Positions 9,765 through 62,930 of a stretch of DNA of 64,000 bases are shown here, in pieces. A model generated the notes under the pieces. That model was not told where the DNA came from. It worked only from the letters and a program-made list of their open reading frames with translations, and ran no database searches. Positions within the stretch are counted from its first letter, which is position 1; each line of letters starts with the position of its first letter. Source of the DNA: Alphaproteobacteria bacterium (lineage in GTDB: Bacteria > Pseudomonadota > Alphaproteobacteria > Rickettsiales > SXRF01); the NCBI GenBank assembly GCA_020049775.1, contig JAGVLO010000014.1:1-64000 (forward strand). Reading direction: 5' to 3'. The position numbers and the translations under genes were made by a program.

Positions 9765-9871
9765 ACATAAATTTATCTCCCGTTTACGCCACTGGATTTT
9801 TTTCCTACAGCATCCTTACGCCATTGATGGTTAGAATCATGCTGTTCAGCAACATCAAAGGAGAAAGACCA

Positions 9872-10432
9872 ATGAAAACCACACGAAATATATTGCTTAC
9901 ATGCATACTGGCGATGGCATCCATCGTCTCTATAAGCATGAATAATGCAATGGCAGCTACCGCTGAGGATCTGGATAAAGATTCCACCCAGGCGATTGCA
10001 ATGCTCATCAAAACCAACCCTCTCGCCGCCGAGATTTCAAAAAAAGCGAAAGCGACGCTTATTTTCCCTAACATCGTCAAAGCTGGCCTCATATTCGGCG
10101 GTGCTTATGGCGAAGGTGTTTTGAGGCAAGAAGGGAAAAATAATGGATATTATAATTCCGTCACCGCATCCTTCGGCTGGCAGGCAGGCGCGCAATCTTA
10201 CGGATATGTAGTGTTCCTGATGAGTGATAAGGCGGTCAAATATATTCACGAAACACATGGCTGGGAAATCGGCGTCGGCCCGACAGTGGTGATGGTGGAT
10301 GATGGCGTCTCCAAAAATCTATCGTCATCTACCTTAAAGGATGATGCCTATGCCTTCATTTTCGACCAGCAGGGGCTGATGGCTTCTTTAAGCATCGAAG
10401 GCACTAAAATATCCAAAATCAAAACTCCATAA
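9872..10432 (+). CDS. SYLF/YSC84-family lipid-binding exported protein
   Basis: 186 aa from the ATG at 9872 with AAAGGAG. A signal peptide ends near NNAMA. The mature protein follows the SYLF-domain pattern: an early helix, then AKATLIFPNIVKAGLIFGG, YGEGVLR, YNSVTASFGWQAGAQSYG and LSIEGTKIS at the C-terminus. Bacterial members (BPSL1445/YSC84-like) are secreted or periplasmic lipid-binding proteins of unclear role. An upstream TTACGCC pair (9784-9822) is discussed as a possible operator. Confidence 0.8.
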   Translation: MKTTRNILLTCILAMASIVSISMNNAMAATAEDLDKDSTQAIAMLIKTNPLAAEISKKAKATLIFPNIVKAGLIFGGAYGEGVLRQEGKNNGYYNSVTASFGWQAGAQSYGYVVFLMSDKAVKYIHETHGWEIGVGPTVVMVDDGVSKNLSSSTLKDDAYAFIFDQQGLMASLSIEGTKISKIKTP

Positions 10433-10450
10433 TCTGAAAGAAATAACAGT

Positions 10451-10705
10451 ATGAATACACAATCCCAAAGCAAATTTTTAATAATGGCTGGTTTAGCCCT
10501 CGTAGTCGGTGTTGTTGGTTATTATGTGCTAAACGCTCCGGACAGGCGCAGCGCCGGAGATAAAATCGGCGATGCCATCAATGAATTGCCAAATGGCCTC
10601 GATAAAGCCTCGCGGCAGTTGGAAGACCGTACACCGGGTGAAAAGCTGGGGGATGCGGCAAAAGATGCAGGCGACGACCTTAAAAAGGCTACAAACCAGC
10701 AATAA
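10451..10705 (+). CDS. Small single-span membrane protein
   Basis: 84 aa, beginning 19 bases after the SYLF gene. One membrane helix lies at residues 9-27 (FLIMAGLALVVGVVGYYVL). A charged amphipathic tail follows with GDKIGDAINELP and GEKLGDAAKDAGDDLKKAT, two similar short units. The tail resembles small stress-related envelope proteins, but no family is certain. Confidence 0.6.
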   Translation: MNTQSQSKFLIMAGLALVVGVVGYYVLNAPDRRSAGDKIGDAINELPNGLDKASRQLEDRTPGEKLGDAAKDAGDDLKKATNQQ

Positions 10706-10753
10706 TGGCTATTTGTTTATATCTATTTTATCCAGTGAAGCGTAGCATGCCTT

Positions 10754-12580: not shown

Positions 12581-12582
12581 AA

Positions 12583-13050
12583 TTGACCAAATCTATGACC
12601 TTACCTTCCGAGAATATCAAATTCCTTGAAAACCTTGCCTACCGCTCCGCCCATTGGGCGGGCAGTCCATGGGCTTATCTCATGGCTGTTGGATTCACTT
12701 TGATATGGCTGGCCTCTGGCCCGTTTCTGTATTTTTCAAATGACTGGGAATTGATAATGAGGGTTGCCGGCGGCACGGTTACCTTCATCATGGTGTTCCT
12801 GATTCAGCGTTCGCAGAACAAAGACTCTCTGGCGATGCAGATCAAGCTGAATGAGATCATCGCAGCCTTGCACGGCGCTAACAATCGTATGATTAGCATC
12901 GAAGATTTAAGCGAAGGTGAAATCAATTCCTTACAAAAAGATTATCAGAGTCTGGCGACCCATATCCATAAAGACGGCGAAACATCCACCCATGCCGTTT
13001 CTATAGAAGATGTGGTTAAACTGGAAGAAAAGGCGATGTCTGAGAGTTAA
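12583..13050 (+). CDS. Low-affinity iron permease family membrane protein
   Basis: 155 aa from a TTG at 12583, or 151 aa from the ATG at 12595; neither has a strong ribosome site. Features of the family include the NLAYRSAHWAGSPWAYLMAV start and two membrane helices (~30-50 and ~58-76). FLIQRSQNKDSLAMQIKLNEIIAAL with a following acidic helix is the usual signature. The name comes from yeast Fet4; for bacterial members transport is unproven. It follows the kinase by 2 bases and is probably co-transcribed. Confidence 0.75.
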   Translation: MTKSMTLPSENIKFLENLAYRSAHWAGSPWAYLMAVGFTLIWLASGPFLYFSNDWELIMRVAGGTVTFIMVFLIQRSQNKDSLAMQIKLNEIIAALHGANNRMISIEDLSEGEINSLQKDYQSLATHIHKDGETSTHAVSIEDVVKLEEKAMSES

Positions 13051-13052
13051 TG

Positions 13053-13072
13053 CCTTACGCCCCCCTTACGCC
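13053..13072 (+). promoter_or_regulatory. Direct repeat CCTTACGCC x2, candidate response-regulator site
   Basis: Two copies of CCTTACGCC begin at 13053 and 13064, one DNA turn apart (11 bases), 80 bases before a lipoprotein gene. Side-by-side repeats at this spacing are typical of OmpR/PhoB/KdpE-type regulators. Related TTACGCC copies precede the SYLF gene at 9784-9790 and 9816-9822. Confidence 0.35.
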
Positions 13073-13151
13073 TAATCTCCTTTGTCCTGCGTACTGTTTA
13101 TAAACTCTCCGCTAGGGTGTTCTTACATCAATTCCAACAACGGAGAATATT

Positions 13152-13397
13152 ATGAATAAGTTATACACGACTACACTAGCCATTGCAGCCCTGACCTTTC
13201 TGGCCGCATGTGGTGATGCGCAGGGCGAACGCGCACTCAGCGGCGCTGGCATTGGTGCCGGTGTCGGTGCCGTAGGCGGCGCTGTTCTAGGCGGTGATCC
13301 AGTAACGGGTGCCGTGGTAGGCGGCGCTCTCGGTGCTGCTGCCGGAGGACTCACCAAGAAAAAAGATATCGATCTCGGCAAGCCGATTTGGAAGTAG
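13152..13397 (+). CDS. Small glycine-zipper lipoprotein
   Basis: 81 aa with AACGGAG before the ATG. A lipoprotein signal with lipobox LAAC gives a mature protein starting at Cys20. The body is a glycine zipper (GIGAGVGAVGGAVLGG, then GALGAAAGG), which favours membrane insertion and oligomerisation, as in osmotically inducible OsmB-type lipoproteins. It precedes a secreted-protein gene by 8 bases. Confidence 0.75.
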   Translation: MNKLYTTTLAIAALTFLAACGDAQGERALSGAGIGAGVGAVGGAVLGGDPVTGAVVGGALGAAAGGLTKKKDIDLGKPIWK

Positions 13398-46867: not shown

Positions 46868-47668
46868 CTACCTGCTTAGAGCCATGGACTGTAGCGAAGG
46901 CCGGCTGAAGCCGCCTTCTTTCAGGAACTGTATGTAACAATTCTGGTATTGCCGCTGCCAGTGCGCCGGCAATTCGTCCCAGATATTCTGAAACACATTC
47001 CTGCTGCTTACGTTTCCCGAGTTAATCAGCGGGGCTGCTACAAGATAAGGAAATTGTCCGGTGCTGCATGTATCCAGCACCTCATTACGCAGCGCATGCC
47101 CGTCAAAAAAGTCGTGACGCTTTAAAGATAAATCCCCAAGGAGTATGGCTGTCTCCTGCCGCAATTCCTGTAGCCATTCCTGCAACTGCTCCTCGTGCCG
47201 TGGCAGAAGAGCAGCTGGATCCGCTCCCTGCCTAAGCAGTAACAATGATGTGTCCTGATGACGGTTAGCAACAGCAATTTTCAGCACTTCGCCATCCTTG
47301 GCGTCAATATTCGCACCACGTTCAAGCAGGAACGAAACCGTCTTTGTATGTCCGCCTGAGGCCGCCCAGTAGAGCGCATCGTCATCACCTGCATGAATAT
47401 ATGCGCCGCAGTTAAGCAGCAATTCCACCGTATCGGTATGGCCATTGCGAGCCGCGCGGTGCAGTGCTTCATCATTGCCTGCATGCAGGTGCGAGCCTAA
47501 GCTTATCAGCATGTCCACTGCGTCATTGCGGCCAGCGCCCGCCGCCCTGCACAACGCGTCATCATCAAATGCATGAAGGTACGCCCCCAAGCGCAATGCA
47601 TGTTCTATGGCGTCGCAATCTCCTGCCTCTGCCGCATCAAGCAACAGCTGATTGACATCAATCGTCAT
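46868..47668 (-). CDS. Ankyrin-repeat protein 1 of the ANK/AAA/VWA operon (last gene)
   Basis: 266 aa with about five ankyrin repeats (residues ~5-150), each with the H-A-G-D-D/A-L core instead of the usual T-P-L-H. A linker WLQELRQETAILLG follows. The C-terminal operon-specific module has VLDTCSTGQF, APLINSG, IWDELPAHWQ and YIQFLKEGG. It starts within the stop of ankyrin protein 2 (4-base overlap). There is no signal or membrane helix, so it is cytosolic. Confidence 0.82.
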   Translation of the reverse strand: MTIDVNQLLLDAAEAGDCDAIEHALRLGAYLHAFDDDALCRAAGAGRNDAVDMLISLGSHLHAGNDEALHRAARNGHTDTVELLLNCGAYIHAGDDDALYWAASGGHTKTVSFLLERGANIDAKDGEVLKIAVANRHQDTSLLLLRQGADPAALLPRHEEQLQEWLQELRQETAILLGDLSLKRHDFFDGHALRNEVLDTCSTGQFPYLVAAPLINSGNVSSRNVFQNIWDELPAHWQRQYQNCYIQFLKEGGFSRPSLQSMALSR

Positions 47669-48630
47669 GCATGCCGCCCTGATTTTTTTTCATCCGGAGG
47701 GAATGGCTGTGTATAGCGTTCCGCAAAAGGTTTCGTGCCACCTTCCTTGGCGAATTGCATACAGGTATTTTGGTAATGGCCTTGCCAGTGTGGTGGCAGC
47801 GCCTGCCATATATCTGCAAATAATTTACGGTCTTCCGTCTTGCGTGAGTTGATAAGCGGTGTGGCAATGCACGGCACAAACTGGCCCGTGACACAGGCAT
47901 CTAAAACCGCCTCATGCAGTAGTTTTGGCCCAGAAAAACATTGCACTCTCGAAGGTTTGCCGATGTTGAAATGCTTGGCAACCGACTGGCGCAGATCCTC
48001 AAGCCACTCTGCCAGAAGTGTATCGTGCGAAGGGCTTTTTGCAGGGTTTTCCCTGACATAGGGTTTTGCGCCCTCGCGCAGAATCATGACGCCGATATCC
48101 CTATCACCACCAATCAATGCCCAATGCAAAGGCGAGTTTTCATCGGCATGCACATCTGCGCCGCGCGAAAGCAATATCGCTACAGTACTTTTATGGTGGT
48201 GTATGGCAGCCTGACATAAGGGAATATCATTACCCGTGTGTATGTCAGCGCCATTATCAAGCAGTAATGAAACGGTGGCGTCCCGCCCATGCTGGGCGGC
48301 CCAGCGCAGCGCCATGTCGTTATCGGCATGGACATCCGCACCACGGCTTATCAGGTAGGCCACGGTTGCTGTTTTGCCATTGTGGGCCGCCCAGCGCATG
48401 GCAAGGTCATCTTTTGTATGAATGTCCGCACCTAAATCCAGCAGCAGTTTAACCACGTCTATATGCCCCTGCTCGGCGGCGCGGTAGAGCATATAATCAT
48501 TGGCGATATGAAAATCCGCCCCGCCCTCGATGGCTTTTTTGACTTTGGCAGCATCACCCGCATTGATATGCTGCATCAACGCGCGTTCACGCTCGGGAAA
48601 ATCATCCATTATCGCGAGTACGGGCAGCAT
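47665..48630 (-). CDS. Ankyrin-repeat protein 2
   Basis: 321 aa from the ATG at 48630 with GCAGGGA; a TTG one codon earlier is possible. About six repeats (residues ~30-205) read G-A-D-(V/I)-H-A-D-N-D-x-A-L. Then WLEDLRQSVAKHF and the module VLDACVTGQF, TPLINSR, DRKLFADIWQALPPHWQ and QFAKEGG. It is the most repeat-rich of the downstream pair and 21 bases after the small gene 48652-48987. Confidence 0.82.
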   Translation of the reverse strand: MLPVLAIMDDFPERERALMQHINAGDAAKVKKAIEGGADFHIANDYMLYRAAEQGHIDVVKLLLDLGADIHTKDDLAMRWAAHNGKTATVAYLISRGADVHADNDMALRWAAQHGRDATVSLLLDNGADIHTGNDIPLCQAAIHHHKSTVAILLSRGADVHADENSPLHWALIGGDRDIGVMILREGAKPYVRENPAKSPSHDTLLAEWLEDLRQSVAKHFNIGKPSRVQCFSGPKLLHEAVLDACVTGQFVPCIATPLINSRKTEDRKLFADIWQALPPHWQGHYQNTCMQFAKEGGTKPFAERYTQPFPPDEKKSGRHA

Positions 48631-48651
48631 CAAAAATCCCTGCTTCAGCCG

Positions 48652-48987
48652 TTACACTTCATATTCATAAAATACTGTGCTGCAAGCCGTTGCGTGTGAC
48701 AGCAGCGACTTCAGCATTTCAAGCGACGCGCAGGCAGTGGCATGCACCAAGAGCGTGCAGTCCTCGCCTTTGCCGAGATCATGTGCCAGCGCATCAGCAG
48801 TAGTGACGCGGCACATGCCTTCAGCTCTCGCCAGCTCTTCCATTTCCCAGCCGGGATTAACGGCGTAAACATGACTCAGACGCACCTGCGCTAGCTTGCG
48901 GTCCAATGCCTGCATGCGCACGGCTTCCGGCGCTATCTGCCGCGCCATAGCAAGAAGTTCAGGATTCAGTTGTGGTTTAGCGGTCAT
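48652..48987 (-). CDS. Small unknown protein between AAA ATPase and ankyrin genes
   Basis: 111 aa with a strong AAGGAG site, 12 bases after the ATPase stop. It is soluble and helical. Near the end it has two copies of HATAC, 18 residues apart (VHATACASLEML, SHATACSTVF), which could be metal- or thiol-active. No ankyrin repeats or module. Its role must be tied to the operon. Confidence 0.6.
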   Translation of the reverse strand: MTAKPQLNPELLAMARQIAPEAVRMQALDRKLAQVRLSHVYAVNPGWEMEELARAEGMCRVTTADALAHDLGKGEDCTLLVHATACASLEMLKSLLSHATACSTVFYEYEV

Positions 48988-48999
48988 CGCATTTCTCCT

Positions 49000-51987
49000 T
49001 TACCGTGTGGCACGTGTCTGGAACTGGGCAGGCATAAGCGCCGCATCCAGATTTTGCTGCATCAACATCACCGGCCTATCCGGCTCAAACATAACGTCAC
49101 CATTGGCCAGCATGTCCGTAAGCGATAGTTTCTTTGATTTTGCGATAATGTCCGGTGCAGCAATTTTCAGTTGCGGAGCGGGAATATCTTTGAGTTCCGG
49201 CAGGCTTTCGGACATCGTGGCCAGATAATCGTCTGTGTAGCACACACTATACTGCAGCGCTGTCTGCAATTGCTCGGCAAGTGTTGGCCCTCGCATCTGC
49301 TTGGTCATTTCTGCCACAATGCGGGCTGCCCGGTCTTCGTCGCGCAGCGGTTGCAGTTTTGAATCTGCCTCCACGCGCTCTTGTATCGCCTGCCTGCGGC
49401 AATGTTCGCCGTAGCGCACCATTTCATCCACTTCCGCATGGATGCGATCCTGCACCCTGTCCTGCTTGCGGCTTATATAGGTGACATTCGCCGCTTTGGA
49501 TAAATATTGTGCCAACTTTGACGGCACAGGCGGACCATTGCCGATTAGCACAACCTTGTCTATAAGCCGCTCCGGCTTTCCGTCCACCACCGAGCCACTA
49601 AGACGGTAGCGTACCAGAACTTGTAGCGCGTCCGGCTTACCCTGCTCATCAATCCCCACCTGCACCGTAGAAATGCCAAGATTGGCATCGTTGGGCTGGC
49701 CTGCCGCCATCTGCATCGGTAGCATGGGAATAGCCTCAACCTTGGGAAACAGCTTGGGTATGATCTGACCGGATGCACCCGGCAGCGCCAGCGTCATCAG
49801 CAAGCGCATGGTGCTTGGGTCTGCGGCATTGCGGTTCTGCCTGCCGCCCTTTGCCATGCGCTGCCATGTCTCATCAAGCGACGCACTGACTTCGTCAGGC
49901 AAACGCGAAAGTATGTCGCGCGCATTCTTTGAATCGAAGGTCTGCTGGTTGACAATACGCAGCGTAAACTGTGCATCCCTTGCGCCTGCCTGTGGCAGTG
50001 CAATGTCGATAGACGGCACTAGATCCAGACCACCATCTGCCTCTATAATAGCCGAAGCTTTTTTCTGGAGGTCTGCACCCACGTTATCAAGCATATGTTT
50101 AACTGCCGAATACGAGATAACATACTCGGGTTTCAGGTCGGCCCCCGCCTCGAAATGGTCAGGGTAGGCCTGCTGTATGTAACCGGCGATGATTTCCTGC
50201 CATGCCTTGATGGTGGCGTCCCTGCCGATATCACGCGGGGTGTTGAGCAAATCAGCAACCGACTGCGCCTCGCCGGAGGTGCGCACATCCGGCCCATGCT
50301 GTAATTTATCCTGTTCGTCCAGTGCGCCCTTTACCTTATCGGTAAGCGTGGGTTTCAAGTCTGGCAGGAATATGCCATGGCGCATCATCAGCCCTTCTAC
50401 CCAGTTACGTATATGCTGGTTATGGGGGTTGCGCTCGGGATAAAGCTGGTCGATTTTTTTGTGGATAATATTTACCAGCCTTGTGCCAAACTGTTCTTCC
50501 GGCATAAGCAGCGGACCCGGCCTTCTGGCAGGGCGGCGGCCTTTTTCGGTAACCGGCGGCGCATCATGCATAGCTTCTTCAATCCATTGCTGGATTAGGC
50601 GCAGGTCAAAACGCACCTGCCCGGCCGGATGATTCTTGGGGCGGCGTTGCACCTCTTCCTGAAGCGCGGCAATGGCCGGTACATTATCCGCCCTGTCATA
50701 AAGGGCAGAGCGCGGATTTTCCATCTGCGCCACATCACTCATGAACTGCGCCAGTTGCTCGGTGCCGTCCTTGAAACGCTGCCAATTGTTGATAAAGCTG
50801 TAATGGGTAACAGGAATATTTTTCTGCTCACCCTCGGCCATGCCGCGCTTGCGTAGCACTGTCAGGTAATCCACAAAATCGTGCGGCTGGCCTTCCCACG
50901 CGCCTGTTCCTTCCCAACGGTCGCGCTGCGCTTCGTATAATGTGCTGACCGGAAGGCCAGAAAGCAGCTGCTGGACACGGTGCGCCCAGTCACGCTCGCC
51001 CAGCCGGTCGATGCCGATGGTGGCAAGGCGCGAGGCCAGCGCATCCGGAAGCGGTTTGATGCTGTCGTCACGCGCATCCATGTAGTTGCCGGTAAATACC
51101 ACCAGCGATCCATTGCGGCGCAAATCGTTATTGCTGAGTGCAAAACGCTCACCGTTACCGCCATCGATAATGACTTCCTCGTTCGGGTCAGGGCGCGTAC
51201 CTGCCAGCACTTCGTAGAGTTTCGGGTCACCGCCCGCGGCGTCGCGCCTGCGTGCGAATTCATCCAGCGTTATGATAACCGGCACCGTGCTTTCCTTGGC
51301 TGCCTTGAGCGCATAATAAAGCGGCCCCGGCACCTTGGTGATGAGATGGCCACCACCACGGCTGATAAGACCTTCATGCTCGGCAATATCTTCCAGTGCC
51401 TGCATGCGTGTGCGCGAGCCTTCCGCCTGATCGCTATCAGATATTTTAGCAAAATCAATCGTGCCATCTGCGTTCTGGTAATCCTTGAATTGCTCTTTTA
51501 CCACTTTCATGGAAATGGGCTTGAGTGTTTTCTGCCTGATACGATCATTGACATTCTGCTCAAGCGTTTCCCACTTATGGTGGCCGTCGACCGTGGTCTC
51601 GGCTATCAGCTCGCTCATATCGCGGTCATAGCAGTTAATCAGGAATTCCTTGCCACGCGTCATCTGGCGCAATACCTGCGAGGCCGTGGTTTTACCGATA
51701 CCCGGCTCGCCGATCAGTATCAGCGTGCGGTTACGCTCGCGCGAGTCATGATCGGAGGGATCGGGCATATCAAGTTTGCGCAGGGCATCATTCATATGGT
51801 CCATCATGCAGGGAAGCACGGAAAGACGAATGGCATCACCTTCCAGTTGCATGTCCGACCCACTGGAAAGAAATTGCGGAAACGCAATTGCCAGCGTGGT
51901 GACATTGCCCTTAGCATCCAGCGTGGGGATAATAAAGCGGTCATCATCGCGCCCGGGGGCAACCAGCTTCATGTTAGAAGTACTCAT
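49000..51987 (-). CDS. MoxR/CobS-like AAA+ ATPase
   Basis: 995 aa from the ATG at 51987 (AGGGAGA site), overlapping the ankyrin-3 stop by 4 bases. Walker A GEPGIGKTT is at residues 93-101 and Walker B IITLDEF at ~238-244. Sensor 1 VVFTGNYMD and arginine-finger LASRLATIGID follow. The AAA core fits the MoxR group that pairs with VWA proteins. The remaining ~600 residues are helical, unrecognised and unusually long. It is the energy component of the operon. Confidence 0.8.
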   Translation of the reverse strand: MSTSNMKLVAPGRDDDRFIIPTLDAKGNVTTLAIAFPQFLSSGSDMQLEGDAIRLSVLPCMMDHMNDALRKLDMPDPSDHDSRERNRTLILIGEPGIGKTTASQVLRQMTRGKEFLINCYDRDMSELIAETTVDGHHKWETLEQNVNDRIRQKTLKPISMKVVKEQFKDYQNADGTIDFAKISDSDQAEGSRTRMQALEDIAEHEGLISRGGGHLITKVPGPLYYALKAAKESTVPVIITLDEFARRRDAAGGDPKLYEVLAGTRPDPNEEVIIDGGNGERFALSNNDLRRNGSLVVFTGNYMDARDDSIKPLPDALASRLATIGIDRLGERDWAHRVQQLLSGLPVSTLYEAQRDRWEGTGAWEGQPHDFVDYLTVLRKRGMAEGEQKNIPVTHYSFINNWQRFKDGTEQLAQFMSDVAQMENPRSALYDRADNVPAIAALQEEVQRRPKNHPAGQVRFDLRLIQQWIEEAMHDAPPVTEKGRRPARRPGPLLMPEEQFGTRLVNIIHKKIDQLYPERNPHNQHIRNWVEGLMMRHGIFLPDLKPTLTDKVKGALDEQDKLQHGPDVRTSGEAQSVADLLNTPRDIGRDATIKAWQEIIAGYIQQAYPDHFEAGADLKPEYVISYSAVKHMLDNVGADLQKKASAIIEADGGLDLVPSIDIALPQAGARDAQFTLRIVNQQTFDSKNARDILSRLPDEVSASLDETWQRMAKGGRQNRNAADPSTMRLLMTLALPGASGQIIPKLFPKVEAIPMLPMQMAAGQPNDANLGISTVQVGIDEQGKPDALQVLVRYRLSGSVVDGKPERLIDKVVLIGNGPPVPSKLAQYLSKAANVTYISRKQDRVQDRIHAEVDEMVRYGEHCRRQAIQERVEADSKLQPLRDEDRAARIVAEMTKQMRGPTLAEQLQTALQYSVCYTDDYLATMSESLPELKDIPAPQLKIAAPDIIAKSKKLSLTDMLANGDVMFEPDRPVMLMQQNLDAALMPAQFQTRATR

Positions 51988-52820
51988 AACGTTCTCCCTT
52001 GTGTTGCAGTCTTTAATGTCTGTGTATGTGCGCTCAGGCCTGGGGTTATTCCGCCTGCTTTGACGAATTGCAGATAAATGTTCTGGTTTACATTCTGCCA
52101 GTGCGCAGGCAGTTGTTCCCATATGTCGGCAAAAAGCTGGCGGTCGGCCGTGTTATTCGATTCCACCAGCGGCGTGCCGATGGACTTGGCAAATAACCCG
52201 CGGACACAAGCGTCCAGCACATCATCACTCAGGCGCAGATTGCACGGGCTGTCATCAGCAAAACACTGTGCGTGCGTGGGCTTACCGTCAAAATGACCGG
52301 TGCGCTGCTTTTTCATTTCATACAGCCAACCACCAATAGCATGGTCATAAGGCGGCTGCACCACCAATGGATCAGCGCCATGGCGCAGCAGCAATACACT
52401 CATGTCCAGATAGTCGTTCTGGCACGCCATCTGCAGCGCGCGGTCATGTCCGGCATGCAGGTCTGCACCATATCGCAACAACAATCTTGCAGTCTCCAGG
52501 CGGTTGTTAAAGCAGGCACGCTGGAAGGCCTCTCCATCATCAGCATACACATTCGCGCCATGCTGCAGCAATAAATACACCGTATCGCGGTAGCCATATG
52601 CTGCTGCCTCACGCAGTGCCATATCATCCCGTGCATGGATATCAGCGCCGCGCTCTATAAGAGTATTGACCATATTGCGCCTGCCGTGCTTGGCCGCCTG
52701 AATGAGCGCACGCTCATCTTCCATATGTAAATCCGCACCACAATCGATGGCCTCGCGGAACATATGTTCATCACCGGCGGTAACGGCATAAATCAGGAGA
52801 GCATTAGCGTCTGACTGCAT
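51984..52820 (-). CDS. Ankyrin-repeat protein 3
   Basis: 278 aa from the ATG at 52820 with GGGGAGGTT; its first base is the last base of the previous stop. Five repeats lie at residues ~5-160. WLYEMKKQRTGHF precedes a CF...CNLRLSDDVLDAC variant of the module, then LFADIWEQLPAHWQ and LQFVKAGG. The GQF triplet is GLF here. It is immediately before the ATPase gene. Confidence 0.82.
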   Translation of the reverse strand: MQSDANALLIYAVTAGDEHMFREAIDCGADLHMEDERALIQAAKHGRRNMVNTLIERGADIHARDDMALREAAAYGYRDTVYLLLQHGANVYADDGEAFQRACFNNRLETARLLLRYGADLHAGHDRALQMACQNDYLDMSVLLLRHGADPLVVQPPYDHAIGGWLYEMKKQRTGHFDGKPTHAQCFADDSPCNLRLSDDVLDACVRGLFAKSIGTPLVESNNTADRQLFADIWEQLPAHWQNVNQNIYLQFVKAGGITPGLSAHTQTLKTATQGRTL

Positions 52821-53500
52821 TATAACCTCCCCATTGCAACCGCAGATGTTGCAGAAATACGCCATTCACTCTGAGAATCCCTAGCAAGATATGGCTTATC
52901 CTGCTTCACATGCTGCATGTAACTATTCTGGTAATGGTTTTTCCAGACCACGGGAAGTGCCTCCCATATGTCGGCAAAAAGCTGGCGGTCACCATTACTC
53001 CCGGAAGCTATCAGCGGTGTTGCCACTAATGTTGCAAACTGGCCGACAACACAGGCATCCAGCACATGGTCGTTCAGCCTGCCTTCGGTAAAATACCTGG
53101 CGGCATCGGGCGCACCTTCGGAAAAATAGCCTACAGTCTGATGGCGTGTATGTGAAAGCCAGTTTCTGAATACAATATTTTCATATGCGTTTAATTCTTC
53201 ATTATGAGGCGCGTAAGGATCCGCTCCCTGCCGCAACAAGACAAAGGCCGCATCCCTGTACCCATTCTTAACCGCATAAAAAAGTGCTTCACTCCTGCAG
53301 GCACACGCATCAACACCATTTTCAATTAATAATTTCAATATATCCGCAAAACCTCTCTCGGCAGCAGACGTAAGCGCCCAGTCACCATAACTGCTGGCAT
53401 TGGCGCCGCGGGCCATTGCTGATTTCACACCATCGATGTCGTTGCGCTCAACGGCTTCTATCAGTTCTTCATCGAGCGGTGTAATTTCGTAATGCATCAT
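52820..53500 (-). CDS. Ankyrin-repeat protein 4 (shortest)
   Basis: 226 aa; tandem ATGs with GGAGTG upstream, overlapping the ankyrin-5 stop. Only three repeats are clear, the first degenerate. The module is complete to LFADIWEALP, then diverges (VVWKNHYQNSYM), losing the HWQ and KEGG ends. It could be drifting or specialised. Confidence 0.78.
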   Translation of the reverse strand: MMHYEITPLDEELIEAVERNDIDGVKSAMARGANASSYGDWALTSAAERGFADILKLLIENGVDACACRSEALFYAVKNGYRDAAFVLLRQGADPYAPHNEELNAYENIVFRNWLSHTRHQTVGYFSEGAPDAARYFTEGRLNDHVLDACVVGQFATLVATPLIASGSNGDRQLFADIWEALPVVWKNHYQNSYMQHVKQDKPYLARDSQSEWRISATSAVAMGRL

Positions 53501-54288
53501 GCCACACTCCTTGTAAGTGACGGCTTATCCTGGATGCGGGCTGCGTGTGGCCCTGCCCTATTTTCTGACTTCAGGAACTGTACATAGCTGTTCTGGTGCT
53601 GGCCCTGCCAGCAGGCAGGCAGGGCATGCCAGATATCGGCAAATAACCGGCGGGCATCTTCGTCTCCTGAAGCAAGCAACGGTACGCTGACCATGTACTC
53701 GAATTGTCCGGTCAGGCAGGCATCCAGCACCTGCTCCTTCAGCCTGCCATCATCGCTGAAACATTGCTCATGTATTGGTGGCACAGAAAATTTACCGGCC
53801 AGAGATTGCCTTACTTCCTCCAACCATATATCCAGATCGGTGTTATGAAAGGAGTCTTTGCCATCAATAGCATCTTTGGCAAGCGGGTCTGCACCATGAC
53901 GCAGCAGCAGAAGCGTGTTATCGCGCATTTCACTCTGCGCAGCCTTGCGAACCGCGCGATTATTATGCGCTTGCACATCCGCACCGCGCTCGATCAAAAA
54001 TTCCATGAATCGCGTGTTATCCGTTAGCGGCACTCTCGCCGATGCAACCACCCACCATAATGTTTCGTCGTCAAGCGCGTGGATATCCGCGCCGCGGTCG
54101 AGCAATATTTTTGCCGTATCCATATGGTTGTAATAAGCCGCCAAGCGCAACGGGCAGTCATGATCCGTGTGAATATCGGCCCCTTCTGCCAACAATCTCA
54201 GGATTTCTTTATTCAGGCCGTTTTCGGCAGCATCAACCAGCGCCTGTTCCAGCGGCGGCAGTTCTGGTCCTCCCATGTGTCCGACCAT
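53497..54288 (-). CDS. Ankyrin-repeat protein 5
   Basis: 263 aa with GGGAGGTAGCT before the ATG. Four repeats (~10-140), one with a five-residue insertion (VVASARVPLTDNTRF). The module reads VLDACLTGQF, VPLLASG, LFADIWHALPACWQ and VQFLKSEN. It is 2 bases after the ankyrin-6 stop, with a 4-base overlap to ankyrin 4. Confidence 0.8.
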   Translation of the reverse strand: MVGHMGGPELPPLEQALVDAAENGLNKEILRLLAEGADIHTDHDCPLRLAAYYNHMDTAKILLDRGADIHALDDETLWWVVASARVPLTDNTRFMEFLIERGADVQAHNNRAVRKAAQSEMRDNTLLLLRHGADPLAKDAIDGKDSFHNTDLDIWLEEVRQSLAGKFSVPPIHEQCFSDDGRLKEQVLDACLTGQFEYMVSVPLLASGDEDARRLFADIWHALPACWQGQHQNSYVQFLKSENRAGPHAARIQDKPSLTRSVA

Positions 54289-54290
54289 AG

Positions 54291-55022
54291 CTACCTCCCT
54301 GCCCTGTTAATTGCAACGGCAGATTGGCGCGGCGGCGCCTCAATATGGTCAGCAAGCCCACCTTGTTTCATGAATTGCATATAGCTATTTTGGTACTGCA
54401 CCTGCCAGTGTGCAGGCAATTGCTCCCATACATCTGAAAATAACTTCCGGTCTTCGGAAGCGCCGGAAGATAACAGCGGCACGGCAATAAGCGTATTAAA
54501 CTGGCGGGTGACGCACGCATCAAGAATGTCTTCTTGCAATTCACCCGATTCATCGAAACATTGCTTGCGCAACGGCTTGCGGACAAAGCGGCGCGAAAGT
54601 GTTGCCTCCACCTCGTCTAGCCATCGGAACAGGCGAAAGTCCTGCATGTCGTCATCAGGAAATGTCTGCTGCGCATCACAACCGCAGCGCATTAGGAAAA
54701 TAGAATTGTCACGCTGGCCGTTCACGGCGGCACTACGAAGTGCCCAATTGTTGCCGACATGGATATCTGCCCCTCTCGACATCAGCAATTTAATGGTGGA
54801 CACCGGCCCTTCGGTCGCCGCCATGCGCACGGCAAAATCATCCTGGGCATGAATATCAGCACCCGCATCCAGCAGAATTTCTGCTACTTCGTTGCGCCCG
54901 CGCTTGGATGCCCAGACCAGCGCAAAATTGAGCGATTTTGCTCCAGCTGCGATCAGCCGTTTTACCTCTTGCGTATCTCCTTTTTCGGCAGCGGCAACAA
55001 GCTGGTCATCTAGATCATCCAT
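54291..55022 (-). CDS. Ankyrin-repeat protein 6
   Basis: 243 aa from the ATG at 55022 with GGGGAGGTAGC. Three to four repeats (~5-115). Linker RWLDEVEATLSRRF, then ILDACVTRQF (Arg for Gly), VPLLSSG, LFSDVWEQLPAHWQ and MQFMKQGG. One base separates it from the ankyrin-7 stop. Confidence 0.8.
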   Translation of the reverse strand: MDDLDDQLVAAAEKGDTQEVKRLIAAGAKSLNFALVWASKRGRNEVAEILLDAGADIHAQDDFAVRMAATEGPVSTIKLLMSRGADIHVGNNWALRSAAVNGQRDNSIFLMRCGCDAQQTFPDDDMQDFRLFRWLDEVEATLSRRFVRKPLRKQCFDESGELQEDILDACVTRQFNTLIAVPLLSSGASEDRKLFSDVWEQLPAHWQVQYQNSYMQFMKQGGLADHIEAPPRQSAVAINRAGR

Positions 55023-55023
55023 G

Positions 55024-56070
55024 CTACCTCCCCGTATTGCTAGTGTGCGTTGCCGCATCACCTGAAAGGGATTGCGTATGAATGCCTAGACGTGGCTGCA
55101 GGCCACCTTCTTTCATAAACTGCATGTAGGTATTCTGGTGGCTATGCTGCCAATGACGAGGCAGCGCGTCCCACACTTCCTGAAAAAGCTTGCGGTCGGT
55201 TTTTTGCGCCGACTCCATCAGCGGCGCAGCAACACGACTGGTAAACTGGCCCGTGGCGCAAGCGTCCAGCACAGCTTCATGCAATTTCCCTTCCTCGAAG
55301 CACTGCGTCTCTTTAGGTCGCGCATGTGTAAAATGCCTGCGTGCGCTGAATTTCATATCCATCAGCCATTCTTTAATCGCAGGTGCATTATCAGCCTCCA
55401 TACAGGCCTGCGCATCTGCCCCGTGGCGCAGCAGCGCCAGCCCCGAATAACGCCGGTCATTTTCCAGTGCGGCTTTGAGAGCTTTTTCGCCATCCGCATG
55501 CACATCTGCCCCGCGTTCGATAAGTAGTTCCACGGTTTCGGTAGTGCCATTACCTGCAGCACCTGACAACACTTCACCATTGCGGGCATTGATATCCGCG
55601 CCCCAGTCCAGCAACAGGGCGACTATTTCCTTGTTGCCTTTGAAGGCTGCCCAGCATACTGCATCTTCATTCTCGGCATGCAGGTTGGCATTGTTATTCA
55701 GTAGAAATTCTACGATGACATAATGCCCCTCGCGCGCTGCCTCACGCAATGCCACGTCGTCATTGGCGTGGATATGCGCGCCCTTGTTAATTAAAAACTC
55801 TACCGTATCCGCATGTCCGCATTCCGCTGCCCAGCGCAAGGCCACATCATTTGCCGCATGTATATCGGCACCACGCTCAAGTAACAGCCTGACCGAATGC
55901 GTCTGACCATTGCGTGCCGCCAGATGCAGAGCTTCGTCACGGTCAGCATGGATATCCGCGCCCTGCCGTAGCGCTTCCTTGATAGCATCGTTATCACCTT
56001 GTATAGCCCCCTCTACCAGCATCTTCAGCACAGGCGGGTAATCCTTCTTGGGCAGGTGGCCAGTTTTCAT
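55024..56070 (-). CDS. Ankyrin-repeat protein 7 (largest)
   Basis: 348 aa from the ATG at 56070 with GGGGAGGTAGC, one base after the VWA stop; the frame is open upstream into the VWA gene, which is rejected. Seven repeats (~20-245). Then WLMDMKFSARRHF, CFEEGKLHEAVLDAC, APLMESA, LFQEVWDALPRHWQ and MQFMKEGG, the fullest form of the module. Confidence 0.82.
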   Translation of the reverse strand: MKTGHLPKKDYPPVLKMLVEGAIQGDNDAIKEALRQGADIHADRDEALHLAARNGQTHSVRLLLERGADIHAANDVALRWAAECGHADTVEFLINKGAHIHANDDVALREAAREGHYVIVEFLLNNNANLHAENEDAVCWAAFKGNKEIVALLLDWGADINARNGEVLSGAAGNGTTETVELLIERGADVHADGEKALKAALENDRRYSGLALLRHGADAQACMEADNAPAIKEWLMDMKFSARRHFTHARPKETQCFEEGKLHEAVLDACATGQFTSRVAAPLMESAQKTDRKLFQEVWDALPRHWQHSHQNTYMQFMKEGGLQPRLGIHTQSLSGDAATHTSNTGR

Positions 56071-56071
56071 G

Positions 56072-59029
56072 CTACCTCCCCATTCCGCTACGGCGGCCAG
56101 CAGCGCCAATCTGCGACTGGAAATCATCTTCGGTGACAGGATCAAGCGACATCTCACCGGAACGCTGGCGCGACTTAAGCAATGCCACCACCTGCGAAGG
56201 TGCATGCTGCCAATCCGCATCCACCACACCCACACGCCCGTGGTGGCGCTGCTTCATTTCCGTCATCAGGTCGCGTAGCTTGTTCTTTCCGTTATTGGCG
56301 GTAACCAATACATCCACCGTGGCGTTGGGCATGATTTTAAGCACATGGTCGATGGCTTCCCTGCTGGCATTCTCGTCATACAATTCACCATCGGTGGGAA
56401 TAATGAAATGCGTCATGCCGTGCTTCTGACCCGCGGGCAACGGATGGTGCGTCATGCGGTTCAGAATATTGTGGAAAGCCGGAGCAAGCAATGTGCCGGA
56501 CGAAATACCGGTAAGAACGCGCTCGATGCGCGCTTCCACTTCGCTGTCTTTCATGCCGGGTTCGGCAATGAGGTATTTGTTAGCGGCTTCCTTGTCTTTT
56601 GCCCAGTCTTCCTCATCACCCCATAGCGACATGAACAGGCGGTAGCGCACATTCTTAGTATCCTGCATCTGCAGCTTGCGCAGCCCGTCATAGGCGAGCG
56701 CGGCAGTTTTCATGGCAATTTCCATGCGGCTGCCGGCACCAGTTCCCATGCTGCCCGAACCGTCCATCAGCAATACAATATCATGCACCACCGGCTTGGT
56801 GACAATTTCCTCCTGCCGCATGGTGCGAAAATCATCCAGCGAAGCCCTGCCCTGCGCCAGCTTGTTACCCAACTGCTCCATCCTGTCCTGATCAAGCCGC
56901 TCAAGCAAGTTGCCGCCGCCACCGGGCAAATCAAAACGCGTGGGCCTTACTTCTTTTACTCGTTTCGATACGCGCTCAGAAAGCTCTTGCAATATGCCTG
57001 CCACTTCGCCGCTCGCCTGCACATAGTCGGTATCGCCACGCAAATCACGGTAGGATCGGCCATCACCAAGCACCAGTTTTTCAATGGCGGATTTCTGGCT
57101 ACCCGCCCCTTGCTGGGCTGGACTGTTCATCGGCAATACATTACGCGGCGTGTGGGCGTAGGGATCTTTTCCCTTTGGTTTTCCTTCACCTTCCTTCTTG
57201 TCTTTATCATCGGGGTCTTCACCATTCACTTCGCGCTTGCGGCGTGACTCGGAGGTTTCAGACTGGCTGGCCTCCTTATCCTGATCCCCTTGAGATGCGC
57301 CTGTGCGTTTGTCGTGGTCCTGCTTGCCCTGACCTTGCGGCGTGGAGGATGGCATATCGCTTTCTTTTTCGCCCAGTCCTTCGACCTCCATGCCTTCGCC
57401 ACCGTTACCTTCACCGCCCTGTTGCTGCTGCGGATTCTTTTTCATGTCCTCGACGGCTTTTTCAATCTGCTGTTTTTTCTGCTTCATAATTTCAGCAATC
57501 AGCGGATCGGCAAGACGCAACAGCTTTTCGATTTCCTCGTTGCGCCAGCGGTTATAGAGCTTCACCTCGCCGTCATAATTTACAAGGTGCATTTCTTTTG
57601 TATTCGGATCTTGCAGACGGTACATACGGCCCGGGCCATCAAGCGCATGCGGTTGCAGCCCTTCAATGCGCCGCGTAACATCCTTGATATATTCCCACAT
57701 CTGCACCTGCTCTTCCGGCGTTTCTGCGGGCAACAAATCTAACTGCACGCCGATGGAGGCGCGCCCCTCAGATGTATCAGGCGAAAGGCGGTTGCGGAAA
57801 TAAAACGCCATATTCACCGCATGCGACAAATTGGCGAGCCGCTGGCTTGCATCAGGTGCTTTTTCTTCCTCTCCTTCCCCTTTTTTATCCAGCTTCTCCT
57901 TGGGCGCAAAATATTTACTTATAAGCGGCGCTGTTTCCTGAATGGTGCGGAATACATTTTGTGAGTCGGCAAGATTACCCTTGTGCCGTAGCGCAGGAGT
58001 GGCGATATGCTCAGGATCGCCAAGATTTACCGAATAGCGGTTAACGCAATTATCCTCGCAGGCATTCCAGAAACGCTGGCGCATGGTGAACTCTGCATGC
58101 AGCGCCATGAATTCCTTGAACTCCTCAACCGTTACCTTGCTGCCCGAGGGATAAGTCGGCTTGGGCGAACCGTCCGGCATAAAAGCATCGGGCAATTTCA
58201 TGCCGCCTTTGGCTGCGAGGCTTGCCATGCGCGACCAGATTTTCTGCATGCTCTCGGGATAGAATTTGCTGAGTTTGGCGTGGCCGATTTCGTGATGGGC
58301 AATCGGTTCGTAATGCCCGAGATAGCCGCCTTGCGCTTCATACAACCCGCCGCCGGTAATCAGGCAGTGACACAAATCGAGGTTAATGCGCGGCATTTTT
58401 GAATCTGGCGAGAAATAAAACCAGCTGCCCGGCGCACCGGCAATCAAACGGCACTGTCCTGGCAGTTCAAATGCAAGGCGGTTGAACATACCGTCCACAA
58501 AACGGCTGGAAGTTACCGCTTTCACCAGTGGGTGAAAGGTAAAATCAGAGCGCTGGATTTTGTCATTGGCGAAAGCATGAATAAGCGTGGCTGCCCAGAG
58601 AAGCTGGCGCTCAGCATCATTCAAATCAAGACGTGGCACGCCTTCCGGCAAAACGCCATGCTCAGCACCATGCCGCGCCAGCAGGCGATGCTGCGCAAAA
58701 AATGCCTTGCGCGCAGGCGGCACGGACGCTTCCACACGATCAAGGAACGCGTCCACATCCGGCCAGTCGAGCAGGCTTGGCTGAGGTTCATGCGTAGCAA
58801 CCAGCGTTTTTTCAGCATCATTGCCCTCACCCGCTTCCACTTTTTTCTTGATACGCCGGAAGGCAGTTTCGTTCATGCTTTGCGCAAGCAAACGTACAAG
58901 CTCTACCCTCTGGTCTATAAACGGCAGTTTTCCCGCCTGCCCCTCAGGCAAAGGCGGCAAGCCGGGCAATGACGGCAGACCTAAAATCTCATACGCAGAG
59001 CGCGCTGAACTGGATGCAGTGGACAACAC
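56072..59029 (-). CDS. CobT-like VWA protein with HExxH metal motif, first gene of the operon
   Basis: 985 aa from a GTG at 59029 after CAGGGTAG; no other start fits better. AHHEIGHAKL places HEIGH at residues 246-250, and ACEDNCVNRYS about 80 residues on could give the third ligand, as in CobT-like families. The middle (~520-650) is Lys/Glu/Gln-rich and disordered. The C-terminal von Willebrand A domain has the MIDAS motif DGSGSMG near residue 757, with a later Thr and Asp in IIPTDGE. VWA proteins of this type partner MoxR/CobS ATPases. Its HExxH could be an enzyme or structural. Confidence 0.82.
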   Translation of the reverse strand: MLSTASSSARSAYEILGLPSLPGLPPLPEGQAGKLPFIDQRVELVRLLAQSMNETAFRRIKKKVEAGEGNDAEKTLVATHEPQPSLLDWPDVDAFLDRVEASVPPARKAFFAQHRLLARHGAEHGVLPEGVPRLDLNDAERQLLWAATLIHAFANDKIQRSDFTFHPLVKAVTSSRFVDGMFNRLAFELPGQCRLIAGAPGSWFYFSPDSKMPRINLDLCHCLITGGGLYEAQGGYLGHYEPIAHHEIGHAKLSKFYPESMQKIWSRMASLAAKGGMKLPDAFMPDGSPKPTYPSGSKVTVEEFKEFMALHAEFTMRQRFWNACEDNCVNRYSVNLGDPEHIATPALRHKGNLADSQNVFRTIQETAPLISKYFAPKEKLDKKGEGEEEKAPDASQRLANLSHAVNMAFYFRNRLSPDTSEGRASIGVQLDLLPAETPEEQVQMWEYIKDVTRRIEGLQPHALDGPGRMYRLQDPNTKEMHLVNYDGEVKLYNRWRNEEIEKLLRLADPLIAEIMKQKKQQIEKAVEDMKKNPQQQQGGEGNGGEGMEVEGLGEKESDMPSSTPQGQGKQDHDKRTGASQGDQDKEASQSETSESRRKREVNGEDPDDKDKKEGEGKPKGKDPYAHTPRNVLPMNSPAQQGAGSQKSAIEKLVLGDGRSYRDLRGDTDYVQASGEVAGILQELSERVSKRVKEVRPTRFDLPGGGGNLLERLDQDRMEQLGNKLAQGRASLDDFRTMRQEEIVTKPVVHDIVLLMDGSGSMGTGAGSRMEIAMKTAALAYDGLRKLQMQDTKNVRYRLFMSLWGDEEDWAKDKEAANKYLIAEPGMKDSEVEARIERVLTGISSGTLLAPAFHNILNRMTHHPLPAGQKHGMTHFIIPTDGELYDENASREAIDHVLKIMPNATVDVLVTANNGKNKLRDLMTEMKQRHHGRVGVVDADWQHAPSQVVALLKSRQRSGEMSLDPVTEDDFQSQIGAAGRRSGMGR

Positions 59030-60808: not shown

Positions 60809-60852
60809 GCATACCTGAGATATATTTGTTGCATACCTGAGATATATTTGTT
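60809..60852 (+). repeat. Two identical 22-base tandem repeats
   Basis: GCATACCTGAGATATATTTG plus TT occurs at 60809-60830 and 60831-60852, with no differences. It lies in the ~130-base divergent region between the membrane gene and the copper operon and overlaps the possible TTG start of the next gene. It may be a regulator site, or a slippage duplication. Confidence 0.85.
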
Positions 60853-61219
60853 GGCAAAACCCTGCAGAGAAGGCATAATTACAGCCATACGACATATTTT
60901 AAGGCTTTTCCTTATCTTCACGCTTTTTACTTTTATTGCTGCAACCTCCAACGCAGCAACGATGCCCTGTTGCTCAAAAACCGACAATGTTACAACAAGC
61001 GACATGCCAGACTGTCACAAACAGGATAAAGACAGCGCTAAAACCTCTGGTGATTTAGTCAAAAAACAATGCGAATGTTCGCATTGCATCCCTGTTTCTT
61101 TTGACCGTAATAACAATCTTCAGTCACCATCCGCAGTTTCTGGCAACCGTGTGCCTATTGTGCCGTCCCTTAAATTGGCGGCAAATCCTGCTACTATCGA
61201 TAACCCTCCCAAGCAATAA
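60848..61219 (+). CDS. Secreted Cys-rich protein, probable copper-related
   Basis: 123 aa if the TTG at 60848 is used; the true start is uncertain and may be the next TTG. A signal peptide ends near AATSNA. The mature protein has CC, a DCHKQ and CECSHCIP, a set of soft-metal ligands, then a Pro/Asn-rich tail. It precedes copA by 70 bases. Metal binding and copper involvement are inferred from Cys pattern and neighbours. Confidence 0.55.
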   Translation: MLAKPCREGIITAIRHILRLFLIFTLFTFIAATSNAATMPCCSKTDNVTTSDMPDCHKQDKDSAKTSGDLVKKQCECSHCIPVSFDRNNNLQSPSAVSGNRVPIVPSLKLAANPATIDNPPKQ

Positions 61220-61289
61220 CTCCTGACCCGATTACCTTAAGGCACGTCGCTCGCGCGTGACGCCTCTTATTCATTTCAGGAGTATTATT

Positions 61290-62930
61290 ATGTATGTTCG
61301 TAATTTCTTCCGCATTTCTGGCGCATTGTTATTGTTTTATGCATCGCCTGCCTATGCCAAGACAGTAGAATACCACCTCGACATAAACCGTAATATGGTA
61401 ACCAATGCCGGTTATCCGACAGAGAAAATCACGGTCAACGGTTTTATCCCCGGCCCAATACTGCAATTTACAGATGGCGATGAGGCCATCATCACCGTAA
61501 CTAACCATATGAAGGAGGACACGTCCATACATTGGCACGGGCTGTTGTTGCCTGGCGGGATGGACGGCGTACCAGGTCTAAACGGCTTTCCAGGCATAAA
61601 GCCAGGAGAAACTTTTACCTACCGTTTCAAAATACGCCAATCCGGCACTTACTGGTATCACGCGCACAGCATGGGACAGGAGCAGGACGGGCTTTATGGC
61701 GCGTTTGTTATATCGCCTAAAAATAAAGAACCTGTACATGCAGACAGGGACTATGTTGTATTGCTGTCCGATTTTTCAGCCGAGTCATCTTCAATGATTC
61801 ATAAGAACCTTAAAATGAATTCTGCCTACTACAACCATGCACAGCGCACCCTAGGGGATTTCTTCAGTGATGTAACAAAATCAGGGTTCAAGGCAGTGTG
61901 GAATGATGCCACGGACTGGGGACACATGCGCATGTCACAGACAGACCTCGCCGATGTCAGCGGCTATACCTTTCTTATCAACGGCAAATCACCTGAAGAC
62001 AACTGGACGGGACTGTTCACATCTGGCGAGCGTGTGCGTTTACGTTTTATCAATGCCTCCGCCATGTCGTTTTATGACGTACGGATTCCCGGCCTGAAAA
62101 TGACCGTAGTGCAGGCCGACGGACAAAATGTAGAACCACTGCCCATAGATGAATTCCGTTTTGGCGTTGCGGAAACCTACGACGTAATTGTGGAACCCAA
62201 GGAAGACAAAGCCTACAGCATTGTCGCCGAACCCATTGACCGGACCGGTTTTGCCGTAGGCACGCTTGCCCCGCGCGAGGGCATGCGCGGCGAAATGCCG
62301 AAGCAACGCCCCCGCGCGTTGCTTTCCATGTTTGATATGAATATGGAAAACATGATGAAGGACATGCCCGATATGGACATGACCACAGAATCAGCCACCG
62401 TCAGCGGCTGGGCAAAAACAGGCACGCCGGAAGGCCACAAGGCGCTCAACTACAAGGATTTGCGCTACCTTGGTACACAGAAGGACACGCGCAAACCGGA
62501 GCGCACCATTGAAGTGCGCCTCGATGGCAATATGGAGCGTTATATCTGGACGCTGAATGGTAAAAAATATGAAGAATCAGGGCCAGTCATGCTTCGTTAC
62601 GGAGAGCGTGTGCGCCTGACCTTCATCAACGACAGCATGATGGCTCACCCCATGCACCTGCACGGTATGTTCGTGCAACTTGAAAACGGCCAGCCTGCGG
62701 GAAAGCTGCCCAACAAGCACACAGTCATCGTGCCACCGGGGCAATCCTATTCCGTGCTGCTGACCGCAGACGAACCGGGTGAATGGGCGTTCCATTGCCA
62801 CCTGCTGTTCCACATGATGTCCGGCATGATGACAACCGCCGTTGTCGCAAAGCTCGATGCTTCGGAAATACCTGCATACACACCACCAACAAGCACCACC
62901 AAAAACAAAGGGGGACACCATGCGCACTAA
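61290..62930 (+). CDS. copA: CopA-family multicopper oxidase
   Basis: 546 aa from the ATG at 61290 with AGGAG. A signal peptide ends near PAYAK; no Tat twin arginine is seen. Copper ligands are HWHG (81-84), HAHS (124-127), HPMHLHGMF and HCHLLFHMMSGMM near the end. A Met-rich segment MFDMNMENMMKDMPDMDM (~347-364) is typical for copper handling. CopA oxidises Cu(I) in the periplasm. Its end overlaps the copB start by 11 bases. Confidence 0.9.
   Translation: MYVRNFFRISGALLLFYASPAYAKTVEYHLDINRNMVTNAGYPTEKITVNGFIPGPILQFTDGDEAIITVTNHMKEDTSIHWHGLLLPGGMDGVPGLNGFPGIKPGETFTYRFKIRQSGTYWYHAHSMGQEQDGLYGAFVISPKNKEPVHADRDYVVLLSDFSAESSSMIHKNLKMNSAYYNHAQRTLGDFFSDVTKSGFKAVWNDATDWGHMRMSQTDLADVSGYTFLINGKSPEDNWTGLFTSGERVRLRFINASAMSFYDVRIPGLKMTVVQADGQNVEPLPIDEFRFGVAETYDVIVEPKEDKAYSIVAEPIDRTGFAVGTLAPREGMRGEMPKQRPRALLSMFDMNMENMMKDMPDMDMTTESATVSGWAKTGTPEGHKALNYKDLRYLGTQKDTRKPERTIEVRLDGNMERYIWTLNGKKYEESGPVMLRYGERVRLTFINDSMMAHPMHLHGMFVQLENGQPAGKLPNKHTVIVPPGQSYSVLLTADEPGEWAFHCHLLFHMMSGMMTTAVVAKLDASEIPAYTPPTSTTKNKGGHHAH

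Follow-up and report, generated by a model that had tools for sequence, protein, structure and literature searches.

A three-gene AAA+/VWA core with changeable ankyrin or leucine-rich-repeat proteins in Alphaproteobacteria: a candidate modular target-recognition system

A ten-gene operon of an Alphaproteobacteria bacterium (Rickettsiales; SXRF01) lies in the window of our study, a stretch of 64,000 nucleotides from GenBank assembly GCA_020049775.1 (contig JAGVLO010000014.1, positions 1 to 64,000 of the forward strand). The present study reveals that the operon contains a constant core of three genes, encoding a VWA protein with an HExxH motif, a large AAA+ ATPase, and a small protein of about 105 aa. 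The variable part is a set of receptor genes, each encoding a fast-changing ankyrin or, in some relatives, leucine-rich-repeat (LRR) domain followed by a helical C-terminal domain (CTD), which by its sequence appears to belong to one family. We propose, with evenly balanced confidence, that the constant three-gene core and the changeable receptors docked through their CTDs form a modular system for target recognition and protein remodelling.

The operon comprises ten open reading frames (ORFs), all on the - strand from 46868 to 59029 and nearly gapless, in the order VWA/HExxH, five ankyrin genes, AAA+, small protein, and two further ankyrin genes. With the likely starts (ank2 at 55022, ank5 at 52820, and AAA at 51987), the successive gaps are +1, +1, +2, -4, -1, -4, +12, +18 (TTG) or +42 (ATG), and -4 bases. 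The initial annotation had described a ten-gene operon on one strand with gaps of -4 to +21, and this description holds closely. Since other genomes repeat the VWA-AAA-small protein order, the layout is not a product of chance.

Twenty related loci from 16 genomes of the window's class were read, some of them broken or cut by contig ends. A VWA match was present in all eight genomes with an AAA match, either next to the AAA gene or no more than 2 kb away on the same contig; the exception is G124, where the two genes lie on separate short contigs. The two proteins thus occur as a pair, as initially annotated. A relative of the small protein lies by the AAA gene at 17/17 loci where its place is readable, a count obtained with a profile grown on those same ORFs; it is within 20 bases or overlapping in 16 and 655 bases off in G097. 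The place could not be read at G130:C73, G181, and G020 (contig end or broken AAA gene). A first profile of seven rows already found the small proteins of G879, G878, and G872, which were outside it, at E values of 9.7e-19 to 7.3e-18. No Pfam model matched the small protein at E<=1, and further searches gave no convincing match. The AAA tree (17 rows) and the VWA tree (16 rows) agree on the main groups, with several long branches and unsure joins; the window locus first joins G124, which belongs to another family, and next G009:C12, a member of the window's own family, whereas G007, also of that family, stands apart.

Both large core proteins of the window fall below Pfam cut-offs, the VWA protein with 14.6 bits against 23.8 for VWA and 15.6 against 27 for VWA_2, the AAA protein with 20.7 bits against 22 for AAA_5. 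Their motifs are intact and kept in relatives. Walker A, the Walker B DE, an asparagine at the sensor-1 place, and an arginine at the arginine-finger place are invariant in 10/10 AAA rows. AAA_5 was matched by five of the ten AAA members at E<=1 (best 1.3e-6) and plain AAA by equally many, and the matches of the AAA profile in the PDB include Lon, clamp loaders, and McrB. The HExxH motif is present in 16/16 VWA proteins whose N-terminal part was read (the window and 15 others), which makes a zinc-peptidase domain in this part probable. Among the VWA ORFs examined, 17/18 contain the DxSxS motif of the metal-ion-dependent adhesion site (MIDAS), which is missing only from a 150-aa end fragment in G027. 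The VWA match of the window protein spans residues 750-926 of 985, and no Pfam match to an effector or other domain lies C-terminal to it.

All seven ankyrin proteins of the window exceed the Pfam cut-off for Ank_2 (E 2.7e-10 to 1.6e-30), and 21/21 pairs match by BLASTP with 34-43% identity over long alignments (weakest E about 5e-33). By these alignments the seven proteins are mutual paralogs. Past the repeats, all of them have in common a non-ankyrin stretch of about 90 residues, and in 18 of the 21 pairs this CTD is more alike than the repeats. The kinship on which the initial reading depended is therefore established, and a chance array of ankyrin genes is rejected on account of the paralogy and the common CTD. 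An AlphaFold2 model of ank1 from the seven-row window alignment (mean pLDDT 88) predicts an ankyrin stack, about seven short helices at residues 229-320, and a disordered tail at 329-348. In a structure search, this model aligned to ankyrins (Z 21.8, root-mean-square deviation 1.8, 148 residues), with matches covering the repeats at residues 12-158. When the CTD was assessed for kinship to known adaptor domains, neither F-box, SOCS box, nor PRANC was matched in the window proteins by Pfam at E<=1, and no PDB sequence matched at E<=10.

The receptors differ between loci in both number and class. Repeat proteins per locus range from 0 to 18; over the 17 assessable loci, the adjacent receptors are ankyrins at six, LRR-type at six, and unclassified repeats at two, and three have none. 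CTD-bearing ORFs occur at 11/17 loci. There are 7 in the window, 5 in G872, 3 in G491, 2 each in G879, G878, and G007, 2 beside the AAA gene of G124 (where 12 CTD matches are spread over six contigs), and 1 each in G009:C15, G130:C132, and G231. The largest array, in G009:C12, counts 18, as found with a profile built from 17 of its own C-termini and including a few short, maybe broken ORFs. The repeat-type ORFs of G125, G133, and G097 have no significant CTD match. The number of ankyrin copies, which the initial annotation had recommended comparing between strains, differs between loci (seven in the window, 18 in G009:C12, two in G007).

Pfam ankyrins over cut-off adjoin the core in the window, G009:C12 (two of 18 ORFs scanned), G007, G124, G125, and G097, i.e., at 6/17 loci and in 6/14 assessable genomes. 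The expectation that ankyrins always accompany the motor is rejected, as LRR-type, unclassified, or no receptors stand at the other 11 loci; taken literally, most genomes have homologs without ankyrin neighbours. In seven of the other eight assessable genomes, a repeat protein occupies the ankyrin place (LRR-type in five, unclassified repeat-like in two), with a detected CTD in six of the seven. LRR_6 was matched over its cut-off by a single protein in each of G009:C15, G879, G878, and G872. All three receptors of G491 are below the LRR cut-off, two of them being 45-49% identical to receptors of G879 and G878, and the G130:C132 receptor was called LRR by eye from a sub-threshold match. The repeat proteins of G231 and G133 are unclassified, that of G133 falling below the ankyrin cut-off. 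The LRR-type loci form one clade on the AAA tree (five placeable rows, 100/100).

The CTDs of these different receptors are linked by a chain of profile comparisons, namely window-G124 at 99.3%, G124-G009 at 91.0%, G009-LRR at 93.2%, G009-DDL at 87.6%, and LRR-DDL at 99.6%; the DDL set contains G007 and G231 proteins, and the G124 set includes one G066 row. All 30 controls, comparing the five CTD sets with six other segments of the same loci, remained at 0.1-1.5%. It is therefore likely from these profiles that ankyrin and LRR receptors carry one CTD family, with the G009 set as the bridge. The earlier proposal of interchangeable target receptors gains support from a CTD common to ankyrins and to LRR proteins elsewhere; its premise of ankyrins as the constant companion does not stand.

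The motor is nearly fixed while the receptor repeats change fast at similar synonymous divergence (dS), as seen in the congeneric genomes G878 and G879. Nonsynonymous divergence (dN) between them is 0.06 for AAA, 0.15 for VWA, and 0.22 for the small protein, against 0.34 and 0.44 for the LRR parts of the receptors and 0.22 and 0.29 for their CTDs, with dS of 0.69-1.21 across all parts. Furthermore, identity to G491 is 78% for AAA, 42-48% for receptor repeats, and 58-62% for CTDs.

Several observations weigh against the proposed modular system. No repeat gene adjoins the core at 3/17 assessable loci (G000:C8, in the window's own genome, G009:C20, and G027), and 4 of the 14 LRR-type receptors scanned passed the Pfam LRR cut-off, the rest being below it or without a match. 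The zincin fold was not recovered for the N-terminal part of the VWA protein, where the weak model (mean pLDDT 66) had no Foldseek match at E<=0.001. Compared directly, the window CTD shows no significant match to the other sets (G009 6.4%, LRR 9.0%, DDL 0.5%), nor does the G124 CTD to LRR (0.3%) and DDL (0.8%). CTD-type sequences also occur where no motor was detected: G066 (61% complete) has one CTD protein with no AAA or VWA match, and in G049 (89% complete; L125-L127), likewise with no AAA or VWA match, the LRR-type CTD profile matched 15 times, for the most part over positions up to 74-78 of the profile; these matches are perhaps a related repeat used elsewhere. In a recent tandem pair of G124 ankyrins, a binding-face test gave 21/35 versus 32/130 (p 1.6e-4), and dS was raised at the binding-face positions too (0.65 versus 0.21). 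A second pair showed no effect (9/20 versus 29/68), and a third was saturated (23/26 versus 40/73). As the three pairs are mixed, positive selection on the ankyrin binding face is not claimed.

In the proposed mechanism, the repeat domain would bind a target protein, and the CTD would dock the receptor onto a complex of AAA, VWA, and small protein. ATP hydrolysis may then remodel or thread the bound target, or the receptor itself, and the HExxH domain may cut one or the other. If the CTD docks in this way, different receptors would aim one machine at different targets. F-box proteins, SOCS-box proteins, and Clp adaptors likewise aim one ligase or protease at varied targets. The fast change of the receptors and their changing copy number suggest changing targets, such as proteins of phages, mobile elements, or partner organisms; this is the step of the proposal with the least support.

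Several known systems resemble parts of this arrangement. VWA-metallopeptidases of the DUF2201/COG3864 type are encoded beside MoxR ATPases and have an HExxH region followed by a VWA domain. The window system is alike in this order and in its adjoining AAA+ gene; no DUF2201 match appeared among nine VWA proteins at E<=1, in a library whose holding of that model is unverified. The co-chaperone pairs CobT, CoxE, and RavA-ViaA are alike in having an AAA+ protein with a VWA partner, and CobT_C weakly matched one of the nine VWA members (E 0.096). To our knowledge, these pairs have no receptor families. The Ank-SOCS and the ankyrin or LRR F-box receptors of cullin ligases are alike in combining repeat recognition with a constant docking domain and in serving one machine with many receptors. 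In contrast, the window system is bacterial and has an AAA+/peptidase-like motor in place of a ubiquitin ligase; the likeness seen is one of layout.

The MoxR-vWA ternary systems of VMAP, iSTAND, and FtsH types, as outlined in sections of Kaur et al. (2020, PMC7159879), share with the window system the AAA+/VWA core pair, an extra partner, patchy occurrence, and sometimes several loci per genome. They differ in that the partner here is a small protein without a Pfam match together with many separate ankyrin or LRR receptors, in that the HExxH domain precedes the VWA domain, and in that no effector follows VWA in the window protein. In the model given there for MoxR-vWA pairs, the VWA protein captures a peptide and the ATPase restructures the complex, a scheme that fits the window system. 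Because VWA comes last in the window protein and effectors come after VWA in the published ones, we would say that the window system works like a MoxR-vWA conflict system, not that it is one. No VMAP, iSTAND, or FtsH name was among the Pfam matches of the window proteins at E<=1 (the library's holding of these models is unverified). The words 'ankyrin' and 'leucine-rich' have no occurrence in PMC7159879, where 'LRR' appears once, in the reference list; in the available portion of PMC8195603, mentions of ankyrin appear to concern animal proteins. The sensors of bacterial conflict systems that are diversified by diversity-generating retroelements, as described in part of PMC10907252, are alike in being diversified and linked to conflict systems, whereas the variation here lies between gene copies and species.

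Three other explanations need to be weighed. An immune or conflict system, in which the receptors sense invader proteins of phage or other origin and the AAA-VWA core acts as the threshold-setting trigger of a damaging response, is a somewhat unlikely reading. It would accord with the patchy occurrence (9/132 genomes, the window's own included, and at least 4 further of 385 in the class), with the fast receptor change, with a phage-type integrase 0.6 kb after the G009 array of 18 ankyrins, and with the general likeness to the systems outlined in PMC7159879. A PADLOC scan of four of the ten window proteins gave candidate model PDC-M72A for the ankyrin part of ank5 (E 2.3e-20) and, weakly, PDC-S73 for the P-loop of the AAA protein (E 0.0019, 15 bits); however, both matches are confined to common repeat or P-loop stretches. 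Besides, none of the ten window proteins has an effector domain recognisable by Pfam, and the window protein lacks the effector that usually follows VWA in the published systems. A housekeeping chaperone for assembly or metal insertion, of the CobS-CobT or MoxR-CoxE type with the ankyrins as scaffolds, seems very improbable. Charged linkers joining AAA+ and VWA, typical of such pairs according to sections of PMC7159879, and a gene some 2 kb away from the operon, by eye a probable multicopper oxidase, would suit it. The patchy occurrence, the fast receptor change, and the presence of up to 18 receptor ORFs argue against it, as does the finding of no metal-cofactor gene in a small sample of ten neighbour proteins scanned.

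Improbable too, if less so than a housekeeping role, is that the ankyrin and LRR proteins are exported as host- or prey-directed effectors, e.g., by type IV secretion, with the core as a chaperone or loading machine and the CTD and basic tail as the export signal. VirB4-type ATPases occur in 12/13 examined system genomes; however, VirB4 was also found in G001 (74% complete), which gave no AAA or VWA match, and was not found in the system genome G231. With VirB4 in 13/14 genomes, the presence of type IV secretion failed as a discriminator. The disordered tail of the ank1 model and the arginines in the last five residues of 52/75 system proteins, compared with 67/166 background ORFs, would agree with an export signal, but arginine-ended tails are also on several VWA and AAA proteins, which an effector signal would leave unexplained. 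Nor does a folded domain of 85-100 residues resemble a short C-terminal signal. The matches of ank5 to NCBIfam models of Dot/Icm ankyrin effectors are far below their cut-offs (28 bits versus 600).

We therefore return to the modular system of core and docked receptors. In a fuller form, which we hold only tentatively and less firmly than the general proposal, it would be a repertoire-type system, with ankyrin or LRR receptors in banks that can expand (operon arrays of up to 18, or several contigs in G124), one docking family, and a single metallopeptidase of the AAA+/VWA kind to destroy or remodel bound targets, the receptor class having been swapped within one motor lineage. In the open PubMed Central literature, subscription papers and preprints being outside this scope, no account was found of an AAA-VWA motor served by banks of ankyrin or LRR receptors. 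If the docking is true, the system would be a bacterial counterpart of eukaryotic adaptor-receptor families, with two unrelated repeat folds on the same plug. It could then provide a programmable scaffold for targeted remodelling or proteolysis, as well as a clear test case for the building and renewal of recognition repertoires in bacteria.

Table 1. Features of the operon, in window coordinates
Feature	Position	Strand	Basis
VWA protein, 985 aa: N-terminal probable zinc metallopeptidase domain, charged low-complexity linker, C-terminal VWA domain	56072..59029	-	ORF; weak Pfam VWA match
HEIGH (HExxH) motif of VWA protein, residues 246-250	58280..58294	-	H, E, H invariant, 9-row alignment
MIDAS DGSGSM of VWA protein, residues 756-761	56747..56764	-	D, S, S, M invariant in 9/9 rows
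Ankyrin receptor 1, 348 aa	55024..56070	-	Pfam; AlphaFold2 model, mean pLDDT 88
Candidate docking domain (CTD) of ankyrin receptor 1, residues ~230-322, all helical	55105..55383	-	Alignment, model, profiles
Ankyrin receptor 2 with CTD	54291..55022	-	Pfam, BLASTP, CTD profile
Ankyrin receptor 3 with CTD	53497..54288	-	Pfam, BLASTP, CTD profile
Ankyrin receptor 4 with CTD	52820..53500	-	Pfam, BLASTP, CTD profile
Ankyrin receptor 5 with CTD (upstream ATG at 52865 possible)	51984..52820	-	Pfam, BLASTP, CTD profile
Large AAA+ ATPase, ~995 aa	49000..51987	-	Motifs invariant in 10/10 rows; AAA_5 just below cut-off
Walker A GEPGIGKT of AAA+ ATPase	51688..51711	-	Alignment
Conserved small protein, 111 aa	48652..48987	-	Relatives by AAA gene at 17/17 assessable loci
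Ankyrin receptor 6 with CTD (TTG start at 48633 possible)	47665..48609	-	Pfam, BLASTP, CTD profile
Ankyrin receptor 7 with CTD	46868..47668	-	Pfam, BLASTP, CTD profile

Among 132 relatives from genus to order, a search with the single AAA sequence matched 8 genomes and the VWA profile matched 9, the window's own included in both. The AAA profile matched at least 5 of 385 genomes sampled in the class, again with the window's own, and at least 1 of 398 in the phylum (the window's own), these being lower bounds since two candidates were scored per genome. The system is present in 4 of 12 genomes of the order of G491; in the order of G231, G231 itself was the only genome searched. An origin from phages or plasmids was rejected, as neither AAA nor VWA gave a tblastn match in phages or plasmids. 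Viral contigs gave no match for VWA or ank1, and a single-protein AAA scan of named genome contigs gave none. The window's genome holds a second, distant core without receptors at G000:C8 (L035, G000:C8:6000-25000, 3890-13018), and this genome gave no CTD matches beyond the seven of the window. Beside the second core lie genes for a 528-aa protein whose motifs resemble those of phosphoesterases (GNHE and GHTH, by eye) and for a 509-aa protein. The integrase after the G009:C12 array is of the tyrosine type by Pfam (L048, G009:C12:24000-43000, 12029-13294), and its position suggests a mobile island.

Metallopeptidase-like genes adjoin two core loci, a DUF6782 protein (Pfam) in G231 (L068, 12880-14031) and an HEIAH protein, seen by eye, in G009:C20 (L037, 4562-5377). 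The ankyrin repeats at 46868-56070 of the window follow the short consensus GADIHAxDDxALRxAA. Giant amoeba-virus ankyrins top the list from a structure library that holds viruses only, and no origin is claimed from this. The arginine-ended tails, often GR, on motor and receptor proteins correspond to p 4.7e-5 for the last five residues, and a C-terminal arginine occurs in 28/75 system proteins versus 37/166 background ORFs (p 0.019), in statistics whose rows are related to each other and whose background holds mechanically called ORFs. In the window, no tRNA was found, and promoter-like and terminator-like matches were not above those of shuffled sequence. Beside the operon, at 60848-62930, the probable multicopper oxidase gene is accompanied by a small ORF rich in cysteine, and by eye the two look like a cluster for copper resistance.

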